In this document: piece by piece, positions 8,987 through 57,484 of the stretch
Layout: each line of letters opens with the position of its first letter
Position numbering within the stretch: position 1 is the first letter of the stretch
Source: Alentia gelatinosa
Lineage: Eukaryota > Annelida > Polychaeta > Phyllodocida > Polynoidae
DNA: 64,000 nt
Direction of reading: 5' to 3'
Assembly: GCA_950022655.1 (NCBI GenBank)
Contig: OX465584.1
Span: 52,806,723-52,870,722, forward strand
Notes under the pieces: model-generated
Databases searched by the model: none
What the model was told of the DNA's origin: nothing
Seen by the model: the letters and a program-made list of their open reading frames with translations, nothing else
Translations under genes and position numbers: made by a program

Positions 8987-9455
8987 TTCATCCTACCCCT
9001 AATAGCCCTTAGGGTTAACATTGTGAATCCGTATTCAACTATGAACTGGATACGGAGTTTCGTAACCCACTAGTGTATTACAGTATTTTAATCATGTAAG
9101 TAAAATATGGACCAATCATAGAGCAGCACCCCAGCATCTGCGAAAGTAGTTCCAGCAGTTTCGTGGGGTCCTCGATGACAAGCGAGATGGCAGAGGCTAC
9201 TACATTGCAGCCTTACCCTGGAATGCTTAATACGGTTTTAAATGAAATACTCATTTAATAGTAATTTAATCATTTTTACATTCAGTGGGGGGTAGGATAA
9301 AATCAAAACCTTATTCGTTTTGATATTGGCTCCCGTATTCGACGACTGGAGTTTTGGCTCCGGATTTCACTCGGCTCCGCCTCGTGAAATCACTATGCCA
9401 AACTCCAGTCGTCGAATACGGGAGCAAATATCAAAACTCATCCAGTTTTACAATA
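8987..9455 (+). mobile_element. Foldback element family FB, copy A
   Basis: It starts TTCATCCTACCCCTAATA, has an internal GGGGTAGGATAAAATC, and ends in a 41-base-arm hairpin (9317-9437) around the loop core CTCGGCTCCGCCTCG, then CATCCAGTTTTACAATA. The two arms differ from each other by one mismatch and one indel. A foreign 178-base segment (9096-9273) between copies of TTTAATCAT interrupts it; without that segment it aligns with copy B. There is no coding capacity. Confidence 0.8.
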
Positions 9456-9489
9456 GTAACTTCCCGGAGTGATCCCGGTTAGATCACTC

Positions 9490-9570
9490 TCAAAGTACAG
9501 TACCCTGGCAGTGGGTGCCAGGTAATGCTGGAGAGGCTAATCTGAAGACCAGAGTCTCAGACTTACCTAC
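9490..9570. repeat. Dispersed repeat R2, copy 2
   Basis: Direct repeat of 8669-8747. The following 270 bases contain only short overlapping frames and no recognised gene. Confidence 0.8.
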
Positions 9571-9573
9571 CAC

Positions 9574-10400
9574 CAAGAGGGTTTGGAAAACAGTATCAAC
9601 CATGAGGGTTCAAGGGTCTACTCTTCATGGAGAGACTCACGAGGACAGCCTGTCGACCCACTGCAAACCCGGCCTACATATATGCCGAGTTATGCAATCC
9701 CAGGTTCCGCCGCGCCACTCTCGTGTGCGGCGTTACCTGGAACCACTACACAGCGGGAATTGACTCAGCGCCACCTTCCGAAGAGTGAACAAAACACCGC
9801 TAGATCACCCTGCCCCCTACAATTATATATCTCAAATCAATGAAAAATGTCATTTTAATGACTTATTAAGTCACAGTCACAGTGGGCACGAACATTATTA
9901 TTACTGCACCCCTGGCAGTTGGCAGTATTGATAAGACATTCGCACACAGGTATATGATATTAAAAATATAAAAGACAAAATTCACCAGGATATTTACAAG
10001 AACGCATCAAATTATAAGTAGAGCTACTTTCCCTGCAAATTTCATCGCTAGTAAAATCCAACCCAATGATTTTCATTAAAGGCATATTGGACAATTCAGC
10101 TTGGACATTGAAACCCATGTCAGTCTCCTAAAAACAGAATATGATCTCCAAGTTTAAATAGAACATATATATATCTTAAAAAGGACCACCGTGCTATTTC
10201 TTTCTTTTTTTAATTTGGAGATCAATATCATGATCATTTTATAATAGAATATATATAGAAATTCTAAAGATTAGTTTTTCACACAGTGAATATCTACAGA
10301 ATACATGGAAATTAGTGGCCGACCACTGTCCCCCCAGATCTTTCGCGGCGCTAGCGCTTGCTTAGTCTCTGCCCCAACCCACTGGCGTCAGAGTGGACCA
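9574..10400. other. No gene seen
   Basis: Short overlapping open frames near 9580-9840 lack any recognisable domain; the rest is AT-rich and featureless. Confidence 0.5.
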
Positions 10401-10463
10401 GGAAGTGGGACTACATTCCAATTCTGTTTGTAAACAGACTGCTGAGAGCATGGCCACTTTGTA

Positions 10464-12596: not shown

Positions 12597-12796
12597 TACA
12601 TTTCCTATGCAAATCAAGTACGGTACCCGGTACCAGTAAATGTAAAATGGCATATTTAACCTACTAAGGCTGAATAAATTGGACGTAGAATTAAATTTAC
12701 TATTTTGGAATTAGACGGACAAGAACCCCGTTTAACTGATAATTGCCTGTATTTGAAACTCACCAAGTGACGCCACCGTGAATTGTAGGATATGCC
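12597..12796. repeat. Dispersed repeat R3, copy 1
   Basis: It aligns with 53800-54062; shared blocks include TTTCCTATG-AAATCAAG, AACTGATAATT-like text and CCGTGAATTGTAGGATATGC. The class is unknown. Confidence 0.65.
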
Positions 12797-12799
12797 TCT

Positions 12800-13240: not shown

Positions 13241-13637
13241 TGGTGGCAGCGGTTTTGTGATGAATTTACAGGATAAGTACCCACTCTAAATGGTATTTGC
13301 TCCCTAAGACTTTGATCTACCTACTGGTATGTTTGTTGGTTGTTGAAACTCACCAGGTTTCTTGTAAAACTCTGTCAACGTGCCAACTGCACGCATTATC
13401 ACTCAGCAGCATGGTTTAGCTGGAAGTCTTGACAGTCATTGGGAATTGTCACTGGTATTTCTGCAGGACTCAGTGACTCTGTAGGATTCTCATAGACGTG
13501 TGTGTCTACATCATCTCTGTGCTGTCAGCAGTTGGCAGTGTGTTGTTCAAGTGACAGTACTAAACTCAGTGACAGTGTAATCTGTGTGCTGGCTTGTGTC
13601 AGCCTACTACTATCAGTTTCCCATCTCTTGGATCACC

Positions 13638-16600
13638 ATGGCCACTGCACTTCCTAACTACCCATCCTTTGAGGGTCAAGAGGGCCCTTCTCTTGCCACT
13701 GAGTGGGAGGATTGGTTGGAGGGGTTGGATTCTATGTTGGCTGCAATGAAAGTGACTGAAAATAATGAAAAGTTTGAAAAGCTCTACCACTATCTAGGTT
13801 CTACTAGAAAAGTTTTGAAGAAATTAGATGCAAATGGCATTCAGGGTAAGGATTATGCTTTAGCAGTAGCAGCCCTCACCAAGCACTATAGTCCCCAGAG
13901 GAACTCTATCTATCTCCTCAATCAGTTGTATCACATGAGGCAAAATCCTGATGAATCTATGGATCACTTCTATATGAGAGTAAAGGAGCAGATCCAGTTG
14001 ATAGATATTCAAGCTAAAACAGCTGCTCAAATTGAGGAACTCTTAACTCTTGCACAACTTGTGAACTCCACAAATGATGCAACTCTCAGAACAAGAGCTC
14101 TTAGGGATGGTGACTTGAAGCTAAAGAACTTTCTCGAAAATGCACGTGCTCATGAGATGGCTAAGCGCCAGTCAAATGAGATAGGTGGAACTGCTGAATC
14201 ACTAGCAGTCAAAAAGAAGTTCATACCTCAAAAGAAAAAGCCTAACCCTCAAATTGCCAAGAAGACCCATGGTACTTCCCAGACATCATCAGAATGTCAG
14301 TTTTGTGGTAGAGGGTCACATCCTCGTGCAACCTGTCCTGCAAAGAATTCTGTCTGTCATCACTGCAAACTCAAAGGACATTTTGCAAAGGTATGCCAGA
14401 AAAAGTCTGTCAACCACGTTGCAAGTAGCATGTCTGATGACACCTCATGCGAAGACTCATCTCAACTGCAACAAGAGTTTTTCTTGGGTATGGTGATAAC
14501 CGACAACGAGCCAGTTTCGAAGAAAATCGTTGAAGTCAGTGTCAATGGCGTCTCAGTTCCCTTGCGCATTGATACTGGTGCAGAAGCAACTCTAATTGAC
14601 ACCAATCTGTTCAAGAGACATTTCTCGAAGGAAATACTGAAACCATCAAATTGTATCTTCAGAGGTGCAAAGCAGCAGGAATTCTACGCTCACGGGTATT
14701 TCCCTGCAACACTCAGATATCAGGACCACACTCATGTGGAAGATATCTATGTCATCAACGATGCCTCTCATTTGCTCAGTTGCAAGGCCTCAACTGCTCT
14801 TGGCCTTGTAAAATTCACCTGTTCAGTGTATTCTGAGAAATTTCCTTCACTCTTTAATGGTCTAGGTAAGATGGTGCACCCCTACGAAATAAAACTCATG
14901 GACAATGCTGAGCCGTATGCAGTTCACACTCCACGTCGTGTGCCCCATCCAATCTTGCCTAAGCTGGAAAAGGAACTCAAGCGACTCCAGGACCTCGATG
15001 TCATATCTCCAGTGACCAGTCCCACAGAGTGGTGTGCTCCAATTGTGGTCGTTCCTAAGCCTAATGGGAAAGACGTTAGACTCTGTGTGGACTTGACGAA
15101 ACTCAACAAAGCTGTGCTCCGTCCACGTTATATCTTGCCTTCCGTTGACTATGTGTTAGGTCAACTTGGGAATGCCAAGGTGTTCTCGAAGCTCGACGCC
15201 AATAGTGGATTCCACCAAGTAGTGCTCACAGAGGAATCAAAGCTCCTCACTACATTCATTACGCCATTTGGTCGTTATGCTTATAATCGACTGCCATTCG
15301 GTATTACATTAGCACCCCAATTCTACCAGAGGCAGGTAACACAGATACTGGCAGGACTGCCTGGGACAGTCTGCCTGATGGATGACATTCTAGTCGCTGG
15401 CTGCGATGAGGCCGAACATGATCAACGACTCCAAGCAACTCTTAGCACGCTTGCAGCTGCAGGAGTTACCCTCAATAAGGAAAAGTGTGAGTTCAAGAAA
15501 ACGGAAATCAGCTTCCTTGGTCAAATCGTTTCTGGAGATGGTATCAGAGCTGATCCTGGTAAGGTAGCTGCCATCACCGAAATGGATACTCCGAGTGACA
15601 TTTCAGAACTACGGAGGTTCCTGGGTATGGTCAACCAGTTAGGGAAGTTCACTCCTGACATCACGTCTCTCTCCCGACCTCTACGTGAACTTCTCAGTAC
15701 CAAGAACAATTGGCACTGGGGACCATCCCAACAGGAAGCGTTTGTGAAAATCAAGGATGTGCTCACTAAAACTCCAGTTCTCGCTCTCTACAGTCCAGAA
15801 GCCGAGACCAAAATCTCAGCAGACGCATCGTCTTATGGCCTTGGCGCAGTGCTTTTGCAGCAGAAAGGCACTCAATGGCACCCTGTTGCCTATGCCTCAA
15901 GAGCCATGTCAGACACCGAACAACGATATGCCCAAATAGAAAAGGAGGCCTTGGCGCTCACATGGGCATGTGAAAAGTTCCGTGTCTATCTGGTCGGTAA
16001 TAAGTTTCTCATCGAGACTGACCACAAACCACTTGTACCTCTCTTAGGAGGGCGTGACTTAGACCAACTCCCAGTGCGAGTCCAACGGTTCAGGATGCGC
16101 CTGATGTGGTTTGATTATGACATAATTCATGTTCCTGGGAAGGAGCTCTACACTGCAGATACACTCTCAAGAGCCCCAAGAAATGGTCCATCTGTCGCTG
16201 ATATATCACTCCAGGAGGAAGTGACAGCATATGTTAATGCTGTGCATGCATCCCTCCCCGCATCTGATCGCCGTCTCGATCACATCTGTGATCATCAGTG
16301 GGAGGATGACATCTGTCGTCAAGTATGTATGTACGTACAGGAAGGGTGGCCTGATAACTCTTCACTGAAGGGTATTGTGAAGAAATATGCACCCTACAAG
16401 TCTGATCTCACCATCGTCAATGACCTTCTTCTTATGGGAACTCGGATACTCATTCCCTCAAGCTTGCGACCAGAAATGCTCTGCAAGTTGCACGAAGGTC
16501 ATCAGGGCATAACTAAATGCCGTCAACTCGCCCGTGATGCAATTTGGTGGCCAGGCATCAGTTCTGACATCGAGGAACTAGTCAGTAGCTGCCACCATTG

Positions 16601-17327
16601 CAGAAAGAACAGACCAACTCAGTTTGAACCATTGATTCCATCAACTCCTCCGGAGCAGGCATGGTTCAAAGTCGCCACAGATCTCTTTCAACTTGGCAAA
16701 GACCAGTATATTGTTCTAGTGGACATGTACTCAAGATTCCCAGAATATGCCAAGCTGGAGGAGACTACATCTCGTTGTGTGATTAACCATCTGAAGTCAT
16801 TCTTCGCCCGCCATGGTATTCCACGAATACTGTGCTCTGACAATGGTCCCCAATACAGCAGTCAAGAATTTGCTGCATTTGCTACAGACTATGGCTTCAC
16901 TCACATAACTAGCTCTCCTTACCATCCCTCAGGAAACGGTGCTGCTGAGAGAGCCGTCCGCACTGTGAAAGACCTTGTGAAGCAACCGGATCCATACATC
17001 GCCTTGCTCAACTATAGGAATGCTCCTCTACACAATGGGTTCAGCCCAGCCCAATTGCTGATGAGTCGTCGCCTAAACACCAAGGTGCCAGTTCTTCCAT
17101 CTAAACTGGAACCGGATCTGCCAGAGAAAGTGACAGTCCTTGTCCGTGAGGACAAGTACAGGGAAAATATGAGTTCTAATTATGACCAGCGTCATAATAC
17201 TAGGCCACTCAAAACCCTCCACCCAGGCAGTCCTGTATGGATAAAGGATAGGGGTGAGACAGGTACTGTTGAGGACAAAGGTGGGCATGATAGGGCATAT
17301 GTGATCAGTACCCCCAAGAAGACATAA
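13638..17327 (+). CDS. Gag-Pol polyprotein of the Ty3/gypsy element
   Basis: The ATG at 13638 lies in a good initiation context (ATCACCATGG) and begins MATALPNYPSFEG; 1229 codons run to a TAA at 17325-17327. In order: Gag capsid-like region (about residues 1-190), two CCHC knuckles (CQFCGRGSHPRATC and CHHCKLKGHFAKVC, near 220-255), protease LRIDTGAEATLID, reverse transcriptase with LMDDILV in the catalytic box, RNase H starting SADASSYGLGAVLL, then integrase with an HHCC finger and D, D, E residues in ATDLFQ, CSDNGPQ and GAAERAV. Gag and Pol are in one frame without a shift. The TAA looks premature: the same frame stays open for 62 more codons to a second stop at 17514-17516, reading like a normal basic integrase tail. 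Reverse transcription could still be functional; integration may be impaired. Confidence 0.95.
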   Translation: MATALPNYPSFEGQEGPSLATEWEDWLEGLDSMLAAMKVTENNEKFEKLYHYLGSTRKVLKKLDANGIQGKDYALAVAALTKHYSPQRNSIYLLNQLYHMRQNPDESMDHFYMRVKEQIQLIDIQAKTAAQIEELLTLAQLVNSTNDATLRTRALRDGDLKLKNFLENARAHEMAKRQSNEIGGTAESLAVKKKFIPQKKKPNPQIAKKTHGTSQTSSECQFCGRGSHPRATCPAKNSVCHHCKLKGHFAKVCQKKSVNHVASSMSDDTSCEDSSQLQQEFFLGMVITDNEPVSKKIVEVSVNGVSVPLRIDTGAEATLIDTNLFKRHFSKEILKPSNCIFRGAKQQEFYAHGYFPATLRYQDHTHVEDIYVINDASHLLSCKASTALGLVKFTCSVYSEKFPSLFNGLGKMVHPYEIKLMDNAEPYAVHTPRRVPHPILPKLEKELKRLQDLDVISPVTSPTEWCAPIVVVPKPNGKDVRLCVDLTKLNKAVLRPRYILPSVDYVLGQLGNAKVFSKLDANSGFHQVVLTEESKLLTTFITPFGRYAYNRLPFGITLAPQFYQRQVTQILAGLPGTVCLMDDILVAGCDEAEHDQRLQATLSTLAAAGVTLNKEKCEFKKTEISFLGQIVSGDGIRADPGKVAAITEMDTPSDISELRRFLGMVNQLGKFTPDITSLSRPLRELLSTKNNWHWGPSQQEAFVKIKDVLTKTPVLALYSPEAETKISADASSYGLGAVLLQQKGTQWHPVAYASRAMSDTEQRYAQIEKEALALTWACEKFRVYLVGNKFLIETDHKPLVPLLGGRDLDQLPVRVQRFRMRLMWFDYDIIHVPGKELYTADTLSRAPRNGPSVADISLQEEVTAYVNAVHASLPASDRRLDHICDHQWEDDICRQVCMYVQEGWPDNSSLKGIVKKYAPYKSDLTIVNDLLLMGTRILIPSSLRPEMLCKLHEGHQGITKCRQLARDAIWWPGISSDIEELVSSCHHCRKNRPTQFEPLIPSTPPEQAWFKVATDLFQLGKDQYIVLVDMYSRFPEYAKLEETTSRCVINHLKSFFARHGIPRILCSDNGPQYSSQEFAAFATDYGFTHITSSPYHPSGNGAAERAVRTVKDLVKQPDPYIALLNYRNAPLHNGFSPAQLLMSRRLNTKVPVLPSKLEPDLPEKVTVLVREDKYRENMSSNYDQRHNTRPLKTLHPGSPVWIKDRGETGTVEDKGGHDRAYVISTPKKT

Positions 17328-17784: not shown

Positions 17785-17909
17785 TGTTGTATTGTGTATT
17801 ACATATACTGCCATCTGGTGTTAACTGCCAGTACTACTAAAGATTGTGGGGGAGAATAAAACTCACTTCCAGTTTTGCCTAGTCATGTGTTCAGACTCAA
17901 TACTTGATA
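17785..17909 (+). repeat. 3' LTR of the gypsy element, internally deleted
   Basis: The first 43 bases and the last about 82 shared bases match the 5' LTR exactly. The roughly 214-base middle (12937-13150 in the 5' copy) and the terminal ACACAACA are missing. An 18-base duplicated piece (CTTGATATACTCTAAATA) follows at the junction. Confidence 0.85.
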
Positions 17910-18810
17910 TACTCTAAATACTTGATATACTCTAAATACGCACCGTTTCGGCATATGACGTAAAAATACTGTACGGACCGCCGGTCCGTACACTATTATA
18001 CGGACTACCTACCCATACTCGTTTATTAAAATATTGATTGTTAAGCCAAATGAATTTTTTTTTAAATTTCAGGTATATAGAACGACCTACCATGCTTGTA
18101 CAAGCCACAAAACTCGATGATAATTCACGGTTTGTACGGAACTCGGCGTAAACGCCTGGTTCCGTACGAACCGTGAATTATCATCTCGTTTTGTAGCTTG
18201 TACAGCATGGTCAGGACGTTCTATATAATTACCCATGCCGTATATATATACTGTAAATACACACTGTTTTGCCATATAACATAAAAATACTGTACGGACC
18301 ACTGGTCCGTACACTAAAATACGGACCACCTTGCCATACACGTTTATTAAGATATTGGTTGTTAAGCTAAATGAAAAAAAAAAATTTTAATTTAGTAAAT
18401 ATATAACGTCCAACCATGCTTGTACAAGCCACAGAACTCGATGATAATTTACCGTTTGTACGGAACTCGGCGTAAACGCCTCAGTCCGTACAAACCGTAA
18501 ATTAGCATCTCGTTCTGTGACTTGTACAGCATAGTCAGGACGTTCTATATATAAGGCATTTATGCCAATTTCCGTACAAACCGTAAATTAGCATCGAGTT
18601 TGTAGCTTGTACAAGCATGGTGGGTCGTTTTATATTTACTATAGGGCCTACCCAAGGTCAATGAAATAATTGTTAATAACTAATAATTTAACTAATATTT
18701 TAAATGACGTGTACGGAACAGTGTTCCGTATTTTCCCGTACGGAACATTTTTACGTTATGTGGCAAAACGGTGCGTATTTACAGTACATACCGCATGGGC
18801 ATAGATGATA
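17910..18810. repeat. FB3 foldback repeat cluster
   Basis: Two long hairpins (18074-18226 and 18400-18550) have arms of about 65 bases around the loop GGCGTAAACGCC. Short palindromes of the GTACGGACC-GGTCCGTAC type lie between them. The left text (TAAATACGCACCGTTTCGGC) reappears inverted near 18760-18790, so the cluster has inverted ends. It is the right part of the repeat into which the gypsy element inserted. Confidence 0.85.
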
Positions 18811-19094: not shown

Positions 19095-19143
19095 TTCCTG
19101 ACAGCTCCCAGGCAGACTAGACACCAGCCAGACATCTGCCAAC

Positions 19144-20167
19144 ATGGAAGGGAAGACAGTTACCAATCTCCGCCTCCCACTGATATTAGCAGTGATACTG
19201 TGTGTTGGAGGAAGTAGCGCCGTCACAGTTCACTTCACTAGCCCCGGAGGTGGATTCCAATCATACGTTGCAGGACTTTACAGATTGACTTTCGATGTTG
19301 ACAGTTTCCTAGAAGACAGCTCGGCCTTTGCTAACGACAGTCGACGCCAGCCAGACTTCATCTGTGCTACTGTCGGCAATACGGGCCACACCGGGCTCTC
19401 TATTGCTTCATCGTCATACGACCCAACTACAGAAAGAGTGACTTTATTACAATATCAGTCCCCCCGTACGTTCTTCTCTGGAGAGATTTGCAAACCACAG
19501 GAATCTTGTCGCGATAGACAAAAACTGACATTGTTTGCGCCGAAGGTGAAAACCACAGACGGTGGCGACATCTCGTCTGCAGCGTCTTGGGATGGCATCC
19601 ACTACTTTATTTACACTCCTGACACATCAAATGCCGTATATTTCGGCTATAAACCCTATCTCCAACTCAGACAGATTAAAACCGACTTCAAATTCTCTCG
19701 GGCAAACTACCCCGACGCAATTGACGTTGACAGCTTCTCTTTGTTGCTTGCAAACTTGACAACGGATGACCCGTCGAGGCGCTTGCTGCAGGCCGGAAGC
19801 TCTCTGGCCGTCTTTCCGGCCGAATCCCAGGGCCTTATTTTCGTGACCGTGGTTCGTGAAGCCCTCTATCCCAACCCGCCCTACGTTACGGACCTCCTGG
19901 AGTTCGGCTTTGCCCTGGCAGTGGGCAAAATCGGGACAACGGAAGAGGACGAAATGAAGATCTTGCACGTAACTGATAACACGTGGAAAGGATGGTACTC
20001 GCACTCTATCGGCCATGAGGGTTCGGTCAGTTATAAAGACGGGGTACTTTGCTGGACGGCCGTCGACACAATCCTCTGTGGAACATGGTCCCCGGAACAG
20101 CCCCTCACCCCACCCACCGATTTGCTGACCGTGCTAAGCCCTGGCCAGGCTGCCTCTGTCTGTGGAG
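19144..20167 (+). CDS. Secreted protein gene, exon 1
   Basis: The ATG at 19144 is the first in frame and is directly followed by the signal peptide. Reading past the donor would give a tail (KLSTLFNMPS) and a stop at 20214; intron retention would thus yield a secreted form without the C-terminal anchor. Confidence 0.88.
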
Positions 20168-21377
20168 GTAAGCTTTCCACCTTGTTTAATATGCCTAGTC
20201 GTTCCATAAATTAACTAGAGCACATATATATCTTGCATAATTGAAATTCCTAGAGATATTGGTGTCCTATTTGCATGATGATAAATTGATATTGACAGAA
20301 TGATTAGCCCATGGGAAGTCCTGGAGCTGTTTCAAAACCATAGACTTAACCCACGTTTTGAAACAGCTCCCTGTTCATGGACGCCTTGAGCCCTGGACGC
20401 CTTGAGCCTTTCTGTGGACGCCTTGAGCCTTTCTGTGGACACCTTGAACCTACCCTGTGGACGCCTTGAGCCTACCCCATTTTGGTTTCCTTGAGCATCT
20501 AGATGTAAAAACTTTGAAAAGTGTACTTATAAATACTGGTTTATAATCATATATACTCAACCCTAACCCTGTCCCAACCCTATTTCTAACCCTAACCCGC
20601 TAATCAGAACTAAAATGAGGTAGGCTCAAGGCGTCCATGGGGTAGGCTCAAGGCGTCCACGTTTTCGCGCTGACAGGAGGCTCAAACGGTAAAAGGCTCA
20701 AGGCGTCCAATTCCCGGAAGTCCTATTACAAATTACCGTCCACCGCCCGCATGCTTCTGAAGGGGAATTGAACAAATCTCACTATATCTGGTGTTTTGGT
20801 GGAACCAGCCCTTGAGCCTCCTGGCAGATTCTCACACTAAATCTGTGGCTGACACCAATGTGTTTCCATATTTTCTATGTCTCTCATGAGGTAGAAAATT
20901 CGAGAAATTATTTCCACTTTCTTTTTCTGACCACAACTGACTTCCCTGTAAATCATATCCTCAATTTGTGTCTTGTTTATTGCTGTTTCAGAGAACTGGT
21001 CCACCAAGTTCTACACTAACGTGACAACAGGAGTGACCATCCTGCAGACCCCAGAACAAGATGGCCGCCTATCTCTGCTCTTCGGCTGCTTCTCGTCAGT
21101 TACGAATGCCGGGGGGATGGGGCTGCTTGTCCGGCAGCCGGACGATGGCAGCACTGAGATCGTGTCTGTATCGGATCAGTATGGCAAGGTGCTGGCTGGG
21201 TCTCTCTTCACCACACCTGACACCCTCTGCCCCGCACCAACCTCTGACAACAGTGGGTCAAACACAGGGCCAGCCACAGTGGCGGCCACAGTGTCTGGGG
21301 CGAGTCGTAGAGTGACTGGAGAGTGTATCATGAGCCTGCTGCTTGTAGTGCTTTGCTTCTGCTGGTTCAGCAGTTAA
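19144..21377 (+). CDS. Unrecognised secreted, possibly GPI-anchored protein (two exons)
   Basis: Exons 19144-20167 and 20992-21377 join in frame (donor AG|GTAAGC, acceptor TTTCAG|AG, a split Glu codon) to give 469 residues. The N-terminus has a classic signal peptide: LPLILAVILCVGGSSA, cleavage likely near residue 26. The body is acidic and rich in Ser, Thr, Gly and aromatic residues, with several sequons (NDS, NLT, NWS, NVT) and scattered cysteines that suggest an extracellular fold. A Ser/Thr/Gly-rich stalk leads to a C-terminal hydrophobic run (IMSLLLVVLCFCWFSS) with nothing after it, as in GPI-anchored proteins; a tail anchor is the alternative. I recognise no domain. Codon usage and GC content in both exons are clearly above the neighbourhood. 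Confidence is high that it is a gene, low for any function. Confidence 0.85.
20379..20708. mobile_element. Inverted-end element with GGACGCCTTGAGCC sub-repeats, copy 1 (in intron)
   Basis: Four near copies of GGACGCCTTGAGCC in tandem form the left end and three inverted copies (GGCTCAAGGCGTCC) form the right end. Between them lies degenerate telomere-like text with repeated CCCTAA. A close copy lies at 57980-58300 in a synaptojanin intron. Both copies share flanks TTCAT and AATTCCC, so the true ends may lie a few bases further out. No coding capacity. Confidence 0.85.
20992..21377 (+). CDS. Secreted protein gene, exon 2
   Basis: It opens after TGCTGTTTCAG and ends with TAA at 21375-21377. 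It encodes the last 128 residues, including the S/T-rich stalk and the hydrophobic tail. Confidence 0.85.
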
Positions 21378-22195: not shown

Positions 22196-24775
22196 TCCTT
22201 TAAGAATATCAAGGTTTTGTTATGCTCTAATCAGATTCTGGCCGACAAATATTGTCTGATCAGTTATAGGTGGTATTCCTTACAGTGCATACACACTTCA
22301 CTGATCCAATTTTATTGCTCCACCAATGATCATTTCTGGGATATATGCCTTACTTTTCCTCAGTTTCCAGCATGGCCTAGTCTGTTGCAGACCAAAAAGC
22401 ATAATTCTGCTGCCATGTTGGCACTGCCAATGTTGCAATTACCATTTGCACTGCCTCATACAGAGCATATAATTTTTAAGGATATATATAGATCTCTGAC
22501 CATAACTGATTTGGTCCTAACCATTTTTTTCACAGACATTACCATGGGGTGCTTGCATGGATCTAATTCAGATTGGGGTAGAACAGAATTACGCGATTCT
22601 CAACTCTCGATAGGGAATGATGTAAGTGCAACACCTCAACCTCACATTGTCTCACATTTAACCCATGTGTGTTACACTTTAAAGGCATGGTCCACCGGGC
22701 AGTCTCTATGGCACCCCAAGGCTGCCGCACAGCGATAAATGCATTTCCTAGTGGTATTTGCCTCTAGACAAAGTCACCGATTTGATTTTTTGTAAAGTTT
22801 CTTTGCTATACATGTATGTGATAAGTCTAAAGCCTCATCTCAATGTTAGTAGTGACAGCTGCGAAATGTTGATGTGTCGAGAGAATATCATGAGGTGAAG
22901 GTGGGATATTCAACGGACAACCACCTATGATTATCTGACTAGGCAAAAGCAGTATTACCTCCAGCTAGATGCTACTCTGAAAAAGAAAATCACCAACACG
23001 TTCAATTTCTTCCTTAAACGTGTGATAAAGTTGTTTCTTTTTGTAATAATACTCTCATGTCAGTGCTGGGAAGGATGGGTTTTGATTCAATTTGCTAAGA
23101 AATGTGCCTAATTCAGTTTATAATGTCACTCAGATGCCTGTATGATTAAAGCTGAATCTATTTTACCTGATTGTATAATGTTTTATGTAAAGAAAGTGTT
23201 CCATTGGCCTGACAAAACGGAAAAGATGATTTCTGACAACCTGCCATGATCACCTGCCATCGACGATTGTTCTGAATATGAACACCAATGTAATGGAGCA
23301 GCGCTGCCGGACGACCTGCGGTGATCTCCGGGTATGTGATTCACCCACAGTATTCATGCGCAACCTAACCACACACTCTAATGGCATTGCCATTTTGAAG
23401 TAATCCTTGCGCAGTTTCTCACATATAAATATATTAAGATTTCAAAACATAGTAGGTCATTGAAAGAAAACTAGATGAATGTAAAACTAGGTTTTGTAAT
23501 TGCTTATTATCAAAACAATACTGCCAACAGAACTTTTTGAAGTGAATATTTAATAATTGGATATTGTTGGATTTCTGAAACCGGCGATTGCAGAATGTCG
23601 GTTAGTACTGTTTTCTGTTGGATTGTACACTAACCATGTATAGCACATACCCAACTATGTTAGATTTTCTTCAGGTCAATGGACCACTTTCTTTACGGAT
23701 AACCCTTAAGTACACATATGAATACTCCCTTAAGACAATCTATTTTGCCTTGTTGAATAATGTTTTATGTAAGGCTGAGTCGATTTCTATTTTGTCAGCT
23801 GAGTGCCTCTAGTGCGACCCGTGCAAATTTCTAGTGGTTGTATAACGTGCTTAGGCAACCTTGCAACATGTCAGCGACGGTATGTGATATTTATTTGTCA
23901 TGGTCAGTGTCAGGTCGGCCTCTCAAACCTGATTAAAATGATCAAGAAGTGAGGTGTGTGTTCCACAACGAATAGAAAATCTTTTCCTCACTGAAGTTAT
24001 AAGTTATACATGTATACATCAAGTGTCCGACCCATATTAAACATTTGTCCAGGTGAAGATGTTTGGGTCCCATCTTGTGATAGTGCATAGCCAATTTTTA
24101 GCAGTATTTTCAACCTTTATAGCATCAGTTTTTTTTACCAATGACCAAAAATATCGCATTATCGCCAGCCATTTTACTTTTGCACGCTTGTATTTATGAA
24201 ATTGAATGTCGGTCGATTTTCCACCTAAAGCAAGTATTTTATGGCATTTATGGATATTTCAAGTTTTTACTATTCTATTTTTAGGATATATATAATATGC
24301 GCGCTATATGCAGTCAAAAAGGATACAGAACTCGCGTTCAGGTGCTGTTTGCTTGATCATCAATTTTGTGATTATTCAGTGAATAAATATGATGCTTTTA
24401 GATGAAAACGGTGTTTTTGATTTTGTTGATAGTTAGACACTGGCATGAATAAGCCCCTGTGGGCGTCAGGTAAGGTAAATGTATATCATGCTGCGGATAA
24501 AATGATTTGTGAAACTATTGAGTTTTTGAGGTGATATTGGTAAAAACAAAACAAATTTGGATTTTCGAGGCCAATAATTCTATTTTAAAAAGCACACTTC
24601 TTGTTTAGTGATCTTGTTTGGATTCAGAGGTTGAGGGGTTGCAATTCATGTCGGCTCTGGTAGGGATATTCCCTTGACTCCGTTGGGTATTTTCCTCATT
24701 TGGTAGCATTTTTTTATTAGCAGGTGGACGGTTGGTCTTTAGGTTATGGCTATAGCCTACTGGAGTACTTATATA

Positions 24776-25109
24776 GAACTACATCGAGAATTGTATAAAT
24801 ACACAATACTCCACGAGTTTGGATGTGACGCAATCGTCATCGAGGCGAAGCCGAGTGGCGATTACGGTACATCCAAACAATTTTACGATTCGAGTGTGGT
24901 TCTGGATTTATCTCACCCCTTTCTCTGCCATTAAATAGCATCACAACATCAAAATCGTTAAAATATACTTAGCAAATCCATATGACGTCATCTCACATAC
25001 ACTACTCCACGGCCATGGCGTAGTATAGTTACTTTATTGGGGTGATCGTTGAGTATTTTTTTCTAATGGTATTTCTATGTCTAAGCTTGTACCAGGGGTG
25101 AGATAAAAC
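24776..25109 (-). mobile_element. Foldback element family FB, copy E
   Basis: On the minus strand it starts TTTTATCTCACCCCTGG, has an internal GGGGTGAGATAAATCC, then a hairpin (24817-24878, arms GTTTGGATGT / ACATCCAAAC continuing to AATCG) around CTCGGCTTCGCCTCG. Outer text GAACTACATCGAGAATTGT pairs with a degenerate inner copy. The architecture matches copies A-D although most of the sequence differs. Confidence 0.65.
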
Positions 25110-43595: not shown

Positions 43596-46500
43596 GTGAG
43601 TATGATTCCCTGACCTGTCACTCGTATCCCGATATACGGTACACCGTAGTGTCAATGTAAATAGAGCACTCACGGGATAATGCCTTAAATTACAGTCAGT
43701 AGTCATACAGACTGGCCAAGTAGAAGTAGTACAACCCTCATCCCGTGAGTTAGTGACTGTCTGTTGTTCCGTGCCGCACAACAATATCAAGTGTTATCAA
43801 TGTTACTTTGTTTAATTTTAAATGCCCCCCCCCCCTCCCAATAGTAGAATTGGAGTCCACGCACATAGCCTCATGCTGAGTCACAGGCCTACTATTCCTC
43901 ATATTTCTACAATGCATTTAGATTCGTGATAAAGTGGACGGTACAGCTGGCCAGTTTCTCTTTTTGTCAAGAACAACTGGTCTGGTGTGGAAGGCCTAGC
44001 CAATGGTTTCAGGTCTTCAGGGCCTATCACTCGAAAGTCGGGTTTCTAGGGCTCACCCTCTCCCGGGGGATGAAAGCCATAAAACACTTCTCACCCCAGC
44101 TTTCTGTGTGGGGACCCTGTAGTCAGTGTAACCAACCATGTCTCCAAACAGGGCTGGTTTGCTGTCATTGCTGAGCACAGGAAATCGCCATCGATACTTG
44201 CTCTCATAACCACTTAACATAATAAAACAAATTGATAACCAATGAATCTATACCGATTGCTTGTACGCCACTACTAGACAATGTGCCCTTACATTATGAC
44301 TGTGTATTTAGAGTTGGTTTTGCAGTGGAGCTTCCCTGCCTCTGAAGTCAAGCCATTTTGTTTATTCTTTATCGCTGGTAAAAAAGCCTGGTTCCCTAAA
44401 GGCCCATTCCCACTTAGCGATTCCTGCCCCTGAGACTACTGCCAGGCATAGTCGCTTGGAAATGACAGTCGCACAGCGGGTGGGAGGGCATATTATCCTA
44501 CCCCTAATAAAAAACGTCATAGGCTTAACATGGGATTCGTTTATGTCACGGGTGTGACATAAAGTGTTGTATGTGCCACTACATTCTGATACAGTACTGA
44601 AAAATATGGAAACAGGGTAGGATCAAATCTAGACGCCACTCGTTTGAGTTTGAGCTTATTTATGCCACTCATTTTGTTGGCTTCGTAATGTCACTCGTCT
44701 TCGACTCATGAAATTATGGAGCCAACAAAATGCGTGGCATAAATAAACTCAGACTCAAACTCGTGACGTCTCTTCATAGTCTGCGACTCGGTCTAGGACA
44801 CAACAGGGTGTCAGTGACTATGCCCTGATAATATTTCAAACATGTCTGAAATTGAATCACAAGAGACTGGTGCCCTTTTTAGCAGGATTCCAGTCACCAA
44901 CTCAAGCCCAAACAATGGGCTGTAGGGCAATAGTCGCTGATGATTTTGTCATTTTGTATTCCCACTTCGTCACTGGGCAAATTCCTAGAAATTTTGGCTG
45001 ATAGTCGGCGACAGGTGCCCTCTGAATAGCCCCAAATCGCTTAGTGGTAATGAGGACAGTACCTCGCGTGTTGATATAGAACAGCTGTTCACCCCTCAGT
45101 GGAGATGAGGTGAGAATACTCTACCTAGGGGCTTGTTTTTTTGTGGGTTTTTTTTGTGTGTGTACAATTTCCTTTATTGAATCTTTATGGAGGATACAGT
45201 GAAGAGAATTCTTTTTTTTTTTGTGAAAAGACAATCACGATTCAATTCAGGTGGCACATAGCCTCAGTTGTTGAACAACTGGTTTTCTTGGCTAGGCCAG
45301 AAAGTAGTATACCCCTGTTACATGTATAATAATTTTAGGGTGACATATATACATCTAAGGCTCATAACTTTCAAGGGAGCAACAGTGTTTTCTTGTATAT
45401 AATAGTCAGAAAGATCTGTGGTGGGTCCTTTAGAAAGTTGGTTGGTGGCACGAGGGGTGCGGGGGCTTGTAAAGGAGGAACATTATCTGTACACCGTCTG
45501 AGCAAAGAGTGTAGACACTCCGATATAGACCCTGGACATTTGTCCACCATTCATGATAAACAAAATAACTTAGACTCTGTGGATATGGTAAAAAAAATCT
45601 TCATTGATTTCTTATTCATTCTTTCAGTCAATTATTCATTCATGCATATATTTCTTGTCTGAATATAAGACAGAAATAGAGAAGCAGAGACAACCATTTT
45701 AGTAAATGCTTTGATTTTCCAATTATTAAAGATGCCCCATCCCAATTCAAAATTGATTGCGGTTATTGGTTAAAGCCATACAAGGGCAGGACATGGGAAC
45801 GGTGCTTTGTTTCGTTCAGCCACCGCTCGGTTAAAAACACAGCTGAGTCTGGCCTCACACTTTAGTGATATACAGCAATCACAGTATCTGATGGCTAGGC
45901 TTGCCAATGTGTTATTGTGCATCCAGTTATCAAAGCTATATCTAAAGTATTACTGAGGTGATATGCATGTTTGACACACCAACTTGGATCTGGGATACCA
46001 TAGAATGCAATACAATCTCTGAACTTTCTCAAAAAATAATATACGAGAGTATTATAAACGTATGACCCTCATACACCCAGTCATCCATTGCTAAAGAATA
46101 TGTTGCCAGGTGTCTATAGGGCATATAGCCTATGACCCATGGGGGCTGCCATGACGCCCCCCGAGTGGGTGTTCTATACTAATGGAGGTGAAAAAGTAGG
46201 TGTTCTTCACTAATGGAGGTGGAAAAGAAGTGAGTGATAATTGGGAAAAGTCACAACTCTAGCCTTGCTCACATATGTATATAAAGTGTTCCATGTGAAA
46301 AAAACTCATGTTCTGGGTTTAATCATTATGTCATCCTGCTTTAGGATGGGTGTAGAGAGTCAAGGGAACCATGGTAAAACATTGAAAGGCAGTTGAATTT
46401 TGTAAGAACAAAGAGCCAGAATATAGATATGTCCCTCCCAAGGGGCCTGCCATACTGCTGGCCACCTAGTGACTGCTTCATGAACTAACAATGGCTCTAT

Positions 46501-49500: not shown

Positions 49501-52500
49501 AATAGGCACACAATTATTCAAACCTAGCCCGATTTAGTAAGACACCCAAATCATGGCTAAACTGCTAAATCTTGTGTGTTGGTGGAATCACCACTTTATT
49601 GAACAAATTGGACGTTAAAGTACCCAAACAAACAAACCTAAACTTTCCAACGTGACAAAACCATCGAATTATTAGTGCAGACGACAATTCACCCATCCCT
49701 GAGCGTTATAACCCCATGCACCCGCCCTTATGCATGTAGCTCTGCCGCAGGCGCCCGTCCATATAGGGGTAAAAGGGTCGTAGCAAGAGAATATCATTTT
49801 ATCCTACCCCTAATATAAAATCCCATAGGCTTAACATTGAGTTTCCATATGCCACGCTGACTGGCATATGGAGTTTTATATGCCACTAGTGGCATACAGA
49901 ATTGTTAGCACGTAATATTCCAAAATCGAGGAGACAGGGTAGGATAAAATCAAAACCTGGTTCGTTTTAATATTGGCCACCACATGCCACTCCTGGAGTT
50001 TTGGCTCCAGACTTCACTCGGCTTCACCTCATGAAGTCACTATGCCAAACTCCAGTCGTGGCATACAGTGGCCAAGATTAAAACTCATCCAGTTTTACGA
50101 TAGAACTATTTTTTTATGTAATGCCTAATTTATATTCCACAATAAGGACCGGAGATTGGTATGTATCGGTCTGTTATGTTCACTGAAATAGGGGTTGTCC
50201 ATAAATGATGTCATGCTATTTTTGACCCCACACCCCTTTTCATATTTTGTCATACAACCCTTGTCATGCTTGGGCATGGAGACTGATACCTAACCCCCAC
50301 CCCTCTGCTACATGACGTAATTTATGGACGGCCCCCTAGTCTAGGGTATCTAGTTTGATATACAGTCCACAGAACCAATACACCACCATGGCTAGTGTTG
50401 GTCTGATGTGACCATGGTGCGAAGTACTCTCGATCCTGACACTAAGCCTATACGACATTGACTTGCTGATGTTTACGATCCGATCCTAGCTGACAACTTT
50501 GTCGGATCGTTAACAATCAGTGACATTCTTTTTTAAGTATGTATTTTACCGAGTTGATTCTAATGTTCCACTAGCAGCTGTTGGTCAATCGCTCTGTCTG
50601 ACTGCCTGCAGCCTGGGCTGACCTATGGCGGCATCCTTTGATCTCAGTCTTGTCGCTTTACTACAATGTACTTTCTTTTAAGACGAGGCATAAACAGTCC
50701 AGACCTTGATACGGCCACTAAAGGCTTGATTCCATGTGGCCGATTATAATCCCGATGTGGTCCAGATGTACTCCAGTTTTTGATACATACGTATCTTATG
50801 CCATTGGGCTGATAGGCTCTAGACAGAGGCCAGTTTTGGTGCCAGAACCTAAACTGGAGTACATCTGGACCACATCGGGAGTGAAATCGGTTATACGGAA
50901 TCCAGCTGTCTGATGAATCTGATCCAGATGAAACTTTGAATTGCTGCCCGCAGAAAATGACAAATTTCTGTTTACCATACCGAATAACACTCACCCACTA
51001 CACTCAATATATACTAGGAGAATGTGGATCCAGACTACGTTCGGTTTCCAGGGCATTACCAATATTATTGAGTTTTCACAATGGTTGCTAGGACATTACA
51101 TGGCGACAGTTTGCTATCAGATTTCTGGTTACAATTCAAGGTAGCGTCAGTCGGAGAGGAGATGTTCCTGCCTCGTTTTAACAGATATAATATTCACTCT
51201 ACATTGATGCTTATTGTTACTTCATCATGGCCATCAGCTTGGTGAGAATCAGGGATCGGTGCTCATATCTAAGGCCTTAGAGAGAAGAGAAATATATATA
51301 TCTGTGATATATATCCTGAACTAGTCTTAAACGTGGAGTATGTAGAGAGGTGTTGACATTACTTAGTTCTGACTCGTTGATGCCAACCTCCACTCTGTAA
51401 ACCTTAGTAACTAGATTTTTTGTCTCCTGCTGAGGTCACGTAAGTACAATGACGCTCACTGATTGGTTTGTCGTGAGTAACTGTGATGGTAAAAAGAACC
51501 GACCTTTTATTACAAATGGACGCTACAAATATTTCAGATAGTAAAGAGTTATTTCAAATATCATTAATAGAGCTACCGTCTATCCAAAGAGAAATTATTT
51601 TTCTATCTGAAATAGTATATGTTTATAAAGGTATGGAATAAAGGTAAGTAAAGAGTAGAAAATATCGTCAGATTGACATCATTATTTTGTCAATTTGAAG
51701 AGGACATTATTACTTTTTGTCATTATACCTTAGTGATAACTGGACTATGACGGTCACACATGAGCACACATGTCAACACTTCTGTAGCCTCTTCTTTGTA
51801 AACAAATGCCCTTTACGATGAACTAAAGTAATCAGGCTCTGTGAACTTTGTGAATTTTAAAGACGAAGCCCCGCCCACCACGCCCATGAGCATGCGCAGA
51901 GCGGGGCTAGCAGGTATTATTCTCAGTAAGGTGGTCAGAGGCAATTGTTAGGTCAATGATATCTTTCCTCTGAAATAGTTTATGCCACGAATTGTCTTGG
52001 GTGGCAGCAATCACTTTTTGGAGAATTTCATATTTTTTTGTCTCTTTTGACTTCTTCTAGTGTGATAGCCACTCCAGTAGATGATGTAGCAGCAAAGTTC
52101 ACATATACATCTAAATCAAGTTTATCTAGTGATGGCTTGGCAGGGATATCTTGCCAGGTAGTCAGCGATGTTGTCTTTGCCAGATTCATACTCTACAGTG
52201 ATGTTGTACCTCTGTGACATCCATCTCTCGATCCTCACAGTTGTGTCAGACTGAGACTTGTTGAAAATAGGAGTCAAGAGGCTTGTGATTGGTTACTTAA
52301 AGATGGAACAAGCAAATACCACAGCAAGAGCTTCTTGATCTGTCATAGAATATCCTTATTTTTGTTGACCTTTCAGCTTTCTTAGTAAAGTGTTTTTTGA
52401 AGATGTCACAGGTCCCCAGGCAATTTTGGTCTTGAGTTTGTTCACTGTGGCTTCACCTTTCTTGATGCTCACAGCTTGTTGCTCTTCTAGTTCCATGGAT

Positions 52501-55500
52501 CTTCCTTTCTGCATGAGTTGTTCAAATGTAAAATGTCTGTTCTCAAGAACTTTTGTTCTCAAAACTGATGATCTGCAGTTCTGCATTACTTTGTACATCA
52601 ATTCTCTGTTGAAATTGTCGAAGTTGCAGTATTTAGCAATCGTCTTCAGTTTAGTGATTTATACATGTGAAGAGTTTCGCCTTGTCCCTGAACCTTCATT
52701 CGGAATCCATAGATTGCATATTCTGTGTTAACCAGAGGCTGGAAGTATCTTTTAAGAGAATCACGTAGCAGAGTATAGATATCTTAAGCAGCAGCATCTT
52801 GCTGTTGACCATCTTGTGGTTGTAGACCAGCTGGACATTGAGCAGCGGGTGGTTCAGCAATACGCCCTTCAGACGTTACTAAACTCCCTATTATCGCCTC
52901 GGGTCAGTAAAGGTTCCGCTCCCGACTAGCTGGCCACACCAAGACCGCATGTCCCCCGATGAACCACAGTTTACCGATTTATAATAGGAGGAACTGAATA
53001 TAGTTTCGGATGCACATGTAGAAATAGCTGAAATTTCTATTTTGGGCATCGAATTCCCGATTTCAAGACATTTAAAAACCGTTTAACCACAATAATCAAG
53101 GGATATGGGTTAAGGTCTATGACTGTACAATGACGGCAACCAGCTAACACCGGATCCTGTAAACGCACTGTATTATGGGGTACCTCAATAGGGTCTATAT
53201 CAACCAAGGAGGCTTCAGAAAGGGGCATTCAACCATCTCCACAGTTGCATCATTTACTGACGATTTAATCTTAGGCCTGAATAATAGACTGCTGACTGTA
53301 GCTGCCTTCATTGATCTGTCAAAGTCATTTGACACTGTTCCACAATTCATCCTTATTGATAATTGTAAAGTGCACTGGCTTGGTAATCATATCGTTAAAT
53401 GGATTGAGAAAACACTATACTATGATAAATGGATGACTTTCTAATATGAGAGAAACTAGCTGTGGTGTGCCCCAAGGTTCAATCATGGGGCCACTGTTGT
53501 TTCTACTGTACATCAATGACCTAAATGGAGTATTAGCTAACGCATCATCCAAAATATACGCTGATGATATGGTTCTATATACCACTAGCAAAAATCCAGC
53601 AGATGCAACTGAGGTAGGTTGGGTTCTACTGTATAGAAATTTTAAAAAGTTACGTTTTACATAGTAAAACCCATGTCATTTTCATCAAACTTTCACAGAA
53701 TACAGCAATTGTATAGTATTACACGTTTAAGTTTTAAAACTCACAGGATACTGTCCTCTTTTTTTTTTAAAGAATTGAAGTAACCATATTTTTCAGTATA
53801 TTTCCTATGTAAATCAAGCTAATGTTAATTGGCTTATTTTACCTAATAAGTTTGGATAAACTGGACAAATCGTTAAATTACTCATTTAGAATTAGAGCGA
53901 ATTACAAAGAGCCATTTTTGACTGATAATTAAGAATAATATATATATATATTACGTGGCTAGGCCTAACTGCACTCTATCGCAGCAAAAAAAAAAAAAAA
54001 ATGATAATTAAGAATAATTAAAAATCAATAGGTGAAGCTACCGTGAATTGTAGGATATGCTTTAATAACCACAGCAGTCTGATAACAGTTAATGTAATTA
54101 GAAATTACATTGTAGGTTGACAGTACAACTAAGAGGCGGTCAAGTTGGCTTTATGGCGTTTATTTTGAACCGACATTTCGGGCTACAATTGCCCTTTATC
54201 AAGGTTAACTTTACTTGGTATTATAGATGGTTAGGTAGCTTGTGAGTCATAAGCGACTTATAGGTACTTACATTGATAATTATAAGTAATGTAACGTGAA
54301 TACACTAACATCTAATTGATTGTAGATCGTTCAGAACATTACATGGTGATATTTCTGATGTCTAAAAAGGTGTCTAATTTTTTTTTAACTCGTACACATA
54401 CGAAGATATAAGCTCGTGTTCGTATAATTATTGAACGATAAATCAACCAGTTCAAACCAAACACACCTGGGCTATCTATGTCTTCCCGTGGTTGAACAGG
54501 TGACTCAGATCTGACTGCTCCTAGCAGCAGCGCTACCCGAGAAAACATACAAAGAAGTGTTTCCTGGTTGGACGGAGGCCAGGAGGCCCCGGGGCGGCTC
54601 GAGGCCGGCTCTGAGGTCATCCTTCCCCGGCACTCAGTGAGGGGAGGGCCGGCGAGACAGGCGGAGGGTGCGTGCTCACAGACGGGGCCCTCTCCACGTC
54701 TTCACACACATACCATAGACGTCTATGCACATACTAAACACTCATTAGATAAACCCCCTTTGAATGGAAGTCCTTAAGAACATAAAAGAGTATTTACAGG
54801 ACTTGAACATAAAAGAGTATTTACAGTATTTGATGATTGTAAAAGACGAGTCCTGGGATATTAACCTAGCTTTCAGAGTAACTGGTGCATGTCGACCTCT
54901 TTATTTCGTTTCTCATTAGGATATATTCATCGAGCATGGATTATGGGTGCGACTTGTGGTAAACTGTGTCTGAGGCATGTCGCCTCCAGACTGCCATGTT
55001 AAAAGCATATCCTACAATAAAGAATGGCGGCACCTGGTTATTTTCAAGTACTGGCAATCATCAATTCAAACTGGTTCCTTTAATCTATTCTAATACCAAA
55101 TGAGTGAAATATAAAATATTATAGAGTTTGACATTTGGTTGAATTATATTGAAAATGTACTGAAAAATATAGTTTTCTTCAATTCTTTCGAAAACAAGGA
55201 CAATGACCTCTAGCTTTTAAAACTTAAATGGGTAGTACTCCATATTTGCTATAATCTGTGAAAGATTGAAGAAAATGACATGTGTTTTATCATGTGAAAT
55301 TTTTTTTTTAAGAACTTCTATATATTCTGTTATGATATTATCATTTTTATTTCTAAATCAGAAACTAACATGGTGACCCCCAATTCTTAAATAAGATATG
55401 TGTTCTACAACACCTTGACATTATCATATCCAACTTTCAGGAAAGTGACATGGGTTTTTATTTTCAAGACAAATTGTTCAATGTGCCTTTAATGACACTA

Positions 55501-57484
55501 TAAATGTTTTCGTCCTTTAGCCCAAGAACAACATTGAATGAGGGCACAAATATAATGATGAATAAGTATTCATGATAGATATGTGCTGATTAGAAAAATT
55601 ATTCGTGAAAAATCAAACCAACTTCACACATATCCAGGAGAGGTAACATGTGGGCAGAATGTAAAGTTTGATTAAAAAAAAAATCACAATGTATTATGTA
55701 GAATGCAGATTTTACACATATTATGGATATGTGTCCAAACTGCATTTTTTATATTGACTGAAACTCTTTGAAGGTAGGTATACTACGAGTTATTGGAGGA
55801 AAGATATTCCAGGTCACTGTTCCTTAATAACTTAGAGAGTTATAGTGTGGATTATTGCAGGTTATTGAGTTCCTCAAGTTTAATAAGAAAAATATCTCCT
55901 TTGTTGATACCTTTCTGTTATTTTTGCAGGAGATGAGACCATCTTGTACCTGGTCACGGTTACTGGCTGCATATCGGTCGGGAAGGTTGGGGATTCGGAG
56001 ATCTTCCGCATTAATGCAGTTCACTTCATGTCGCTGCGGAATGTGATGATGGACGAGGAGAGGATCGTTGAGGTTCGCAAACTGCTCAGCTCGGGGACCT
56101 TCTACTTCTCGTGGTCTGCCTCGGGTGCAGACTTTGACCTCAGCCTCTGTGGACAGCGATTCTACCAATCCCGCGAGACTGACAACCGCTTCTTCTGGTA
56201 AGTACGGACTGCTGTATGAGTACAGATTATTATGTGGGTACAGACTAATGTGAATATAGACTATTGTATGAATACAGACTGGTGTATGGGTACAGACCAC
56301 TGTATGGAAACAGACTTCTGTATGAGTACAGATTATTATGTGGGTACAGACTAATGTGAATATAGACTATTGTATGAATACAGACTGGTGTATGGGTACA
56401 GACCACTGTATGGATACAGACTACTGTATGAGGGCATATTATTATGTGGGTACAGACTAATGTGAATGTAGACTATTGTATGAGTACAGACTTGTGTATG
56501 GGTGCAGACCACTGTATGGATACTATTGTATAACTGGATGTTTTGACTCCGGACTTCACTCAGCTTCGCCTCATGAAGTCACTATGCCAAACTCCAGTCG
56601 TGGCATACGGTGGTCAAGATTAAAACGAATCAGGTTTTGATTTTATCCTGCCCTGTCTCCTCGATTTTGGAATATCACGTGATAACAATTCTGTATGCTA
56701 CTAGTGGCATATAAAACTCCGTATGCCAGTCAGTGTGGCATATGGAAACTTAATGTTAAGCCTATTGAATTTTATATTAGGGGTAGGATAAAGACTGCTG
56801 TATGGATACAGACTATTATATGAGTACAGACTGTTTTATGAGTACAGACGGGTGTATGAGTACAGACTGGTATATGAGTATAGACTGCCATATGAGTACT
56901 AAAGAGGAAACCTATGAAAGTTTAAGTTCAAAGCTTGTATCCTATCGAGTTTGCATCACATAGTAATTCACAATCCGAAGCCACATGAATTACGTGACGA
57001 TGCAAACAAGATGCTATTGAGCTCTGACCCAGAACATTCATAGGTTTCTGAATTTATCTCACCCTTCACATTGACTAATAGGATAACATTTGTGTCATAA
57101 TCCCCCATTGGATATTTTTCCTAAATATCTCATGGGCGTTGGATACAAGTTCCCAATGTTGAATCTATGGAGAGAAAATATCAGGGGTGATGAGATAAAG
57201 ATTGCTATATGATTACAGACTGTTAGTACAGACTGCTGCCTGATTATACACCTCTTTGTAAGTCATGCTATTGTTTTTCCCCGGAAGTAACTGAGGCCCA
57301 AATAGAAAAAAAATCCTTTTGCTTTTTCGTTAGGCTGGAAATAAAACAATCGTTATATCAGCGCATTCCTTTCATGGTAGATATCTATAACATATGAAAT
57401 AATGTCTATATTGCTGCGGTTGATTGTATATGTTGCTGACATGCCAGGAACCGCACTTTCATGGTAAATATGAGTAATATAAGA

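Follow-up and report, generated by a model that had tools for sequence, protein, structure and literature searches.

The 64,000-nucleotide stretch of the Alentia gelatinosa genome analysed here (contig OX465584.1, positions 52,806,723 to 52,870,722; hereafter the window) carries copies of a repeat that is one abundant non-coding mobile family in the assembly. Full copies end in a long hairpin whose shape is kept while the letters of its stems are exchanged between subfamilies. An earlier note, made from the letters of the window, had described seven copies (A to G) with conserved loops and self-matching stems, and had offered either structural selection or repeated rewriting of one arm from the other as the cause. 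We find the first borne out, since hairpin length, bubbles and tip are kept in six subfamilies at 33-49% stem identity. The second is seen in single copies (flips and GA-for-TC changes in A, and two individual copies, L115 of G and L120 of B) but not as a general rule, given the B and C copies. We regard it as probable, though not secure, that the family is a rolling-circle element resembling the non-autonomous Helitron2/Helentron elements (HINEs), with a 3' hairpin selected for its shape through stepwise compensation and occasional template switching.

The 3' hairpin keeps its shape while its letters change

Read in element orientation, a full copy has TTATCYYACCCC at the 5' end, then a core and small palindromes (one or two), after which come the inverted repeat GGGTRRGATAAA, the hairpin and a terminal ...ATA. 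GGGTRRGATAAA directly precedes the 3' hairpin, which measures 150-154 nt where intact, and the partly conserved core contains TAGRCTTAACATT, except in E. Six hairpins, representing six subfamilies, were divided by hand at their bubbles, with hand-set borders, giving stems of 27-29 and 22-25 nt and a tip of 9 nt. TC occupies 32 of the 36 dinucleotides in the three bubbles, the exceptions being GC in the middle bubble of C, GC and TT in the tip bubble of G, and TT in the middle bubble of H. Between subfamilies the stems are only 33-49% identical, depending on the end used as anchor, compared with 89% for the bubbles and 78% for the tip. In a MAFFT alignment the 18 hairpins were shifted by 1-2 columns from one subfamily to another, and the counts therefore rest on the hand-anchored division.

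When folded with DNA parameters, 18 hairpins from the six subfamilies gave energies of -24.5 to -60.7 kcal/mol. Combining the 5' half of one copy per subfamily with its own 3' half gave -46.3 to -64.0 kcal/mol, while combination with the 3' half of another subfamily gave -8.6 to -32.8 kcal/mol. For each stem, none of the other 720 permutations scored as high as the true assignment of arms; the margin was clear for stem 1 (144.5 versus 129.5) and narrow for stem 2 (110.5 versus 107.5), because the inner stems are alike in A and B, and in G and H. The outer stem is perfect in A (27/27 paired) and nearly so in B (25/27). As the hand division might favour TC, loops were also counted by folding alone: 18 of the 30 symmetric 2x2 internal loops in the 18 hairpins were TC/TC, located at positions 13-14, 42-44 and 69. 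Because own-arm pairing, the tip and the TC/TC bubbles persist at such low stem identity, and because of the pair changes between A and B described below, selection of the folded strand, that is structural selection on the 3' hairpin in source elements, is supported. The conserved loops of the earlier note stand in so far as tip and TC/TC bubbles are widely common, but the CACTAGTG loop is limited to A, B and D (with one change in D) and does not occur in window copies C, E and G.

Covariation between and within subfamilies

A gapless alignment of A with B contains 58 pairs, of which 47 are unchanged, 4 have changed on one side and 7 on both sides while remaining Watson-Crick. Only 1.4 two-sided coincidences are expected (P 4e-6), and 2 of 37 unpaired positions have changed. 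Four of the seven are transversion pairs, for which no G.T step is possible, and three are transitions. The stems thus differ between these copies with both arms changing together, as had been claimed.

Within subfamilies, using 40 B and 30 C copies found with queries that included the hairpin, we observed no such excess: two-sided changes numbered 2 in B against 1.1 expected, and 0 in C against 0.23 expected. It follows that insertions drift freely and that change in step belongs to the source lineages. The earlier note had made its proposal depend on excess covariation, which is present between A and B and absent within the close B and C copies, and on arm types being more than the mark of separate subfamilies; arm types are indeed subfamily types, yet pairing has been kept.

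Pair 37/113 was followed in 33 B copies that had been selected on the 5' part with the hairpin disregarded. At the 21 copies scored at both sites (the other 12 were unscorable or carried another base), the states were G-C in 8, T-A in 7, T.C in 6 and G.A in 0; 40 B copies chosen by similarity had G-C in 31, T.C in 4, and T-A and G.A in 1 each. The mismatched T.C state has therefore spread in B, which fits stepwise compensation. The association at 37/113 (P 0.018) is no proof of pairing and can also reflect descent, because sites 37 and 46, which both lie in the 5' arm and do not pair with each other, are linked more strongly (P 0.003). For pair 46/104 the association in B copies is not significant (P 0.24). 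The lack of a two-sided excess in close copies and the spread of a mismatched intermediate in B point to stepwise compensation within source lineages as the main way in which stems change.

The folded strand and shared words

On the opposite strand the bubbles read GA/GA, in a 5'-YGAR-3' context at 27 of the 32 TC sites of the six subfamily sequences, and the tip is a C-GNA-G triloop. Both the d(GCGAAGC) tip and tandem G.A pairs flanked in this way have unusual stability in DNA. This strand folds better than the one shown in 16 of 18 hairpins with DNA parameters and in 17 of 18 with RNA parameters, and its single mismatches are G.T in 13 cases and A.C in 4, the shown strand having A.C 13 and G.T 4. 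The better folding of the opposite strand, and the fact that A.C on the shown strand becomes G.T or G.U on the other, would also suit a hairpin selected as RNA, in a transcript recognised or processed through its stem, as opposed to single-stranded DNA. We consider this rather unlikely: Rfam gave 0 matches at the gathering score in the window, the parts are arranged as in a DNA element, and the C-GNA-G tip is especially stable in DNA.

Among the literature matches listed, none on tandem G.A mismatches or GCGAAGC was pertinent by title, and none on the tip letters was by title a transposon paper. A circovirus-like nonanucleotide near CACTAGTG is probably a chance likeness. Among viral contigs, two matched the 16-mer from the 5' core. 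The tip 19-mer matched one viral contig, whose last 114 bases show no element, and the pattern of the 3' asymmetric terminal inverted repeat (ATIR) matched no viral contig.

Internal parts also tend to resemble the main hairpin of their own subfamily. Across five subfamilies the summed score of the true assignment was 50.5 (permutation mean 41.7), the best of 120 permutations, the common piece being the stem beside the middle bubble (TATGCCAC|TC and kin). The same word had been reported to recur in the separate hairpins of one copy. This holds, but the effect is modest: the internal part of B matches the hairpin of C slightly better than its own, and G contributes nothing.

Rewriting, inversion and deletion in single copies

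Sequence was fetched for 36 of the 40 A places scored, and 35 copies were extracted; intact copies are favoured in this sample, because the query included the hairpin. Of the 35, 4 have an intact hairpin. Deletions alone account for 16 (two of just 5 and 7 nt), 9 contain inverted segments of at least 17 nt, 2 combine shorter inverted pieces with deletions, 1 has a duplicated piece and 3 are broken off, interrupted or absent. Fifteen deletion junctions have differing end points, with microhomology of 0-6 nt (mean 2.1, versus 0.7 at random). With one mismatch allowed, the middle 5' TC reads GA in 10 of the 35 copies and TC in 6. A single inherited flip is unsupported, with 8 label changes against 7.2 for shuffled labels, although the resolution of the tree is poor and the flips may still have a common origin. 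The 5' parts of A copies are near-identical (median end branch 0.017 in a tree of 22). In two A-family loci, L089 and L090, the hairpin breaks off after about 25 nt; in L090 it continues beyond a foreign stretch of over 100 nt that has a T run.

By comparison, the 33 B copies selected on the 5' part include 23 that are intact, 6 with deletions, 1 with the main part inverted (L120), 1 with an exchanged terminus (L136) and 2 that are cut off. Adding seven further rows obtained as full-hairpin matches (the window copy and six others) gives 30 of 40 intact. B copies are 97-98% identical to the window copy and so of roughly similar age to those of A, yet A rearranges far more than B. Among G copies, the 5' arm of L115 reads CTCGTATCCCAT, matching its own 3' arm, where L112, L113 and L116 read CTCAATCCCAT; GA replaces TC at the base bubble in L113, L115 and the window copy.

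Pairing might in principle be kept by template switching or conversion between arms alone, with a functionless fold. The inverted segments and GA-for-TC patches in A, together with L115, L120 and window copy D, are what such a process would leave, and arm homogenisation with spacer inversion is described in the accessible part of PMC8604942. However, it would erase the TC/TC bubbles, yet these lie at approximately the same three places in six subfamilies. Hardly any rewriting is found in close B and C copies, and in B the mismatched state has spread. We therefore think this explanation improbable, and general arm rewriting as the whole answer is ruled out by B and C, where there is no two-sided excess and 23 of 33 B copies are intact. 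Rewriting is real, but it is an uneven second process and not the general rule.

It is likewise quite improbable that the subfamilies go back to unrelated palindromes whose pairing was merely inherited, with no later selection on shape. The stem types do mark many-copy subfamilies, and linkage within B reflects descent no less than it does pairing. Nevertheless, A and B share one frame in which 7 of the 11 changed pairs are two-sided, and length, tip and bubble places would not be common to subfamilies founded separately.

Ends and insertion

In 30 B-type rows, which take in the window copy, elements start with TTATCC and end with CGATA, with few one-base exceptions. The base 5' of the element is T in 24 of 30 and the three bases following its 3' end are RTA in 23 of 30. 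C copies start in the same way and end in GATA or CATA. Canonical Helitron ends (A^TC...TAG^T) are ruled out by the TTATCC and ...ATA of B and C copies. The 5' inverted repeat is located at the extreme 5' end and its partner just 5' of the 3' hairpin, as in HINEs (8-15 bp, 0-4 nt).

Copies D (56524-56791, minus strand) and G (56900-57198, minus strand) interrupt one 18-bp tandem array (56202-56899, plus strand) at the same phase and in the same direction, and the array, with D inside it, supplies the empty site. G is a whole element; D is B-type, with a shortened main hairpin that runs the opposite way to that of B. The array borders given by the program TRF (56202-56523 and 56792-56899) define D on both sides and G on its left, the right end of G (57198) being read from the sequence. 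Closure of the gaps leaves GTCT^GTAT for D and ATCT^GTAC for G on the element strand, without a duplicated base. Neither insertion thus has a target-site duplication, in agreement with HINEs and not with a miniature inverted-repeat transposable element (MITE). A cut-and-paste MITE moved by a DDE transposase, with an accidental palindrome outside one of its terminal inverted repeats, is most improbable: the 12-bp inverted repeats and small size would suit it, and DINE-1 was reportedly once described as a MITE, but the reading is ruled out by the empty site of D and G in the 18-bp array, where neither of two insertions into known sequence brought a duplication, and the hairpin lies at the same place, inside the element ends, in full copies of six subfamilies.

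With window copies counted twice, the window and the loci together gave 178 pattern matches to 3' ends. A same-direction 5' end follows within 70 nt in 7 of them; in 3 of the 178 (L072, L095 and L106) the junction has zero gap and joins different subfamilies; these junctions likewise speak for insertion without duplication. In a further 2 of 178 an inverted 5' end follows. At locus L011 (G000:C6:31118736-31119375) two B elements stand head to head with about 20 bp between them.

Relationship to known transposons

The family is organised like a Helitron2/Helentron non-autonomous element (HINE, DINE-1), without sharing all of its features. HINEs from Helentrons (PMC4067079) and from oyster (PMC7492417) have, in the accessible text of these papers, the same order of parts and no target-site duplication. 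As in our family, the 5' inverted repeat is at the 5' end, its partner is immediately upstream of the 3' hairpin, and the 5' flank is biased to T. Helitron2 shares this arrangement and likewise lacks duplications; it has ATIRs and hairpins, with compensatory changes in the terminal hairpins of two Culex elements, according to the available portion of PMC3627910, the only pertinent paper among the matches listed on Helitron hairpin covariation.

Canonical Helitrons (Helraiser/Helibat) also have a hairpin near the 3' end. For Helraiser, the part of PMC4778049 available describes about 90% activity after stem exchange, while changing the loop has the same effect as deleting the hairpin; exchange of the stem with the loop kept is a precedent for exchangeable stems. 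In contrast, the Alentia element has ends TTATCC/...ATA and not TC/CTRR, has inverted repeats, and its target is not A^T. Quasi-palindrome template switching likewise offers a parallel, in that homogenisation of arms and inversion of the part between them are reported in the accessible sections of PMC8604942 and PMC8794818. Unlike those cases, a transposon hairpin with arms of about 50 bp is involved here, and the process is strong in one subfamily and weak in another.

In the proposed mechanism, a rolling-circle (HUH) transposase of another element would mobilise the copies. The hairpin of about 150 nt, when single-stranded, may serve as the 3' recognition or termination signal, read through its tip and mismatch bubbles, so that stem letters would be free to change while pairing holds. 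The arms of source elements would change in step, mostly by stepwise compensation; template switching between arms might help at times, and may also account for individual copies whose hairpins are homogenised, flipped or deleted.

Several observations weigh against the HINE-like, shape-selected reading. Published HINEs have a 3' palindrome of 5-10 bp and a 3' repeat 38-60 nt from the end, or 20-60 nt on a wider range (PMC4067079 and PMC3627910, in their accessible parts), while the Alentia element has a hairpin 150-154 nt long, made of two long stems and interrupted by TC/TC bubbles, and its 3' repeat lies about 155-165 nt from the end, outside those values. Its ...ATA terminus and T^RTA-like target differ from the TT target of Helitron2/HINEs. 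The 5' hairpin that Helitron2 would lead one to expect is weak, at -2.1 kcal/mol in A and -0.3 to -1.3 kcal/mol in five other subfamily heads. A PF14214 search of the assembly found no autonomous partner, with one match among 3 first-look candidates. By folding, 4 of the 18 hairpins (B_L040, G_win, G_L115 and E_L041) have no TC/TC loop, two of them being G copies with a rewritten base bubble. The close B and C copies, as noted, have no two-sided excess, and between DNA and RNA as the selected strand the evidence favours neither decisively. Because hairpin length, 3'-repeat distance and target depart from those of HINEs and no partner was found, we do not class the family as HINE.

The PF14214 match, the sole one in the assembly, is at L092-L094 (about G000:C7:36821968-36825622, minus strand), with Rep, helicase-like and OTU-like pieces in several frames, the latter two recognised by eye; introns or breakage may separate them. 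The 30 kb around it contain no TTATCCTACCCC or TTATCTCACCCC within one mismatch.

A stricter form of the selected-hairpin reading, which we put forward tentatively and think doubtful as yet, is that the signal is read by shape alone, the enzyme recognising a ladder of G.A bubbles and the C-GNA-G tip while the stem of about 50 bp is neutral and replaceable. If so, the family would form a distinct rolling-circle branch, marked by a 3' terminator of its own type. A single genome here holds very many natural copies of a transposon hairpin whose stem varies independently of its bubbles and tip, which makes a sequence-versus-shape reading of a rolling-circle 3' hairpin testable. The family also allows compensatory change in source elements to be told apart from template-switch rewriting of individual insertions; evidence from covariation is usually blurred by the mixing of the two.

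Copies in the window and in the genome

All seven copies of the earlier note are confirmed at the places it gave. In addition to A to G, two partial copies that it had overlooked are present in the window: H (about 2212-2379, minus strand), a degenerate 3' ATIR and main hairpin of the type of a copy at L047:2218-2468, and I (about 63940-63989, minus strand), the 5' end of an element only. Copy A (8988-9455, plus strand) is a whole element whose 5' end reads TCATCC in place of TTATCC, with a subfamily-specific insert at about 9110-9280, the 3' ATIR at 9290-9301 and the main hairpin at 9303-9455. Copy B (49799-50102, plus strand), with ends set from the 30 B-type rows, is whole with an intact hairpin. 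Its 5' ATIR TTATCCTACCCC (49799-49810) and 3' ATIR GGGTAGGATAAA (49937-49948, directly 5' of the hairpin) are followed by a main 3' hairpin of 153 nt (49950-50102) with tip GGCTTCACC, against GGCTTCGCC in the B majority; all are on the plus strand. Copy C (44493-44778, plus strand) is also whole. Copy E (24770-25106, minus strand, 3' end approximate) belongs to another subfamily and has a shorter hairpin 5' arm than its relative L078, and the G-like copy F (32146-32283, plus strand) retains only the 3' part of the element, the main hairpin.

The 1.234-Gb assembly was searched with queries of the A, B, C and G types. First-look candidates numbered 2662 (A), 5248 (B), 2457 (C) and 5657 (G); 40 per type were scored, so these figures are not copy numbers. 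Each of these four stem types has many close relatives genome-wide, and E- and H-type relatives turned up in the flanks of fetched loci: stem types mark subfamilies. BLAST of the window and the fetched whole-genome loci detected family sequence in 200 clusters. Of these, 53 were counted as lying away from the targeted places: 9 in the window and 44 within longer loci totalling about 260 kb. The density in fetched flanks, about 1 cluster per 6-7 kb, is only a rough guide because these flanks surround known insertions.

Other features of the window

An uninterrupted Gypsy-type retrotransposon frame of 1248 codons (13581-17327, plus strand) encodes reverse transcriptase, RNase H and integrase; its best relatives among the matches listed are 37-50% identical in named species and up to 71% in others. 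A frame of 370 residues (19102-20214, plus strand), with a signal-peptide-like start by eye, had no Pfam match and no homologue at E 0.001. The window further contains a 46-bp tandem array of 31 copies with 97% matches (4270-5697), a 20/40-bp minisatellite (TAGCCACGCCCACCACACAA) of about 48 units (28680-29649), and an exact 206-bp tandem duplication (34527-34932) with weaker relatives near 17890-18551.

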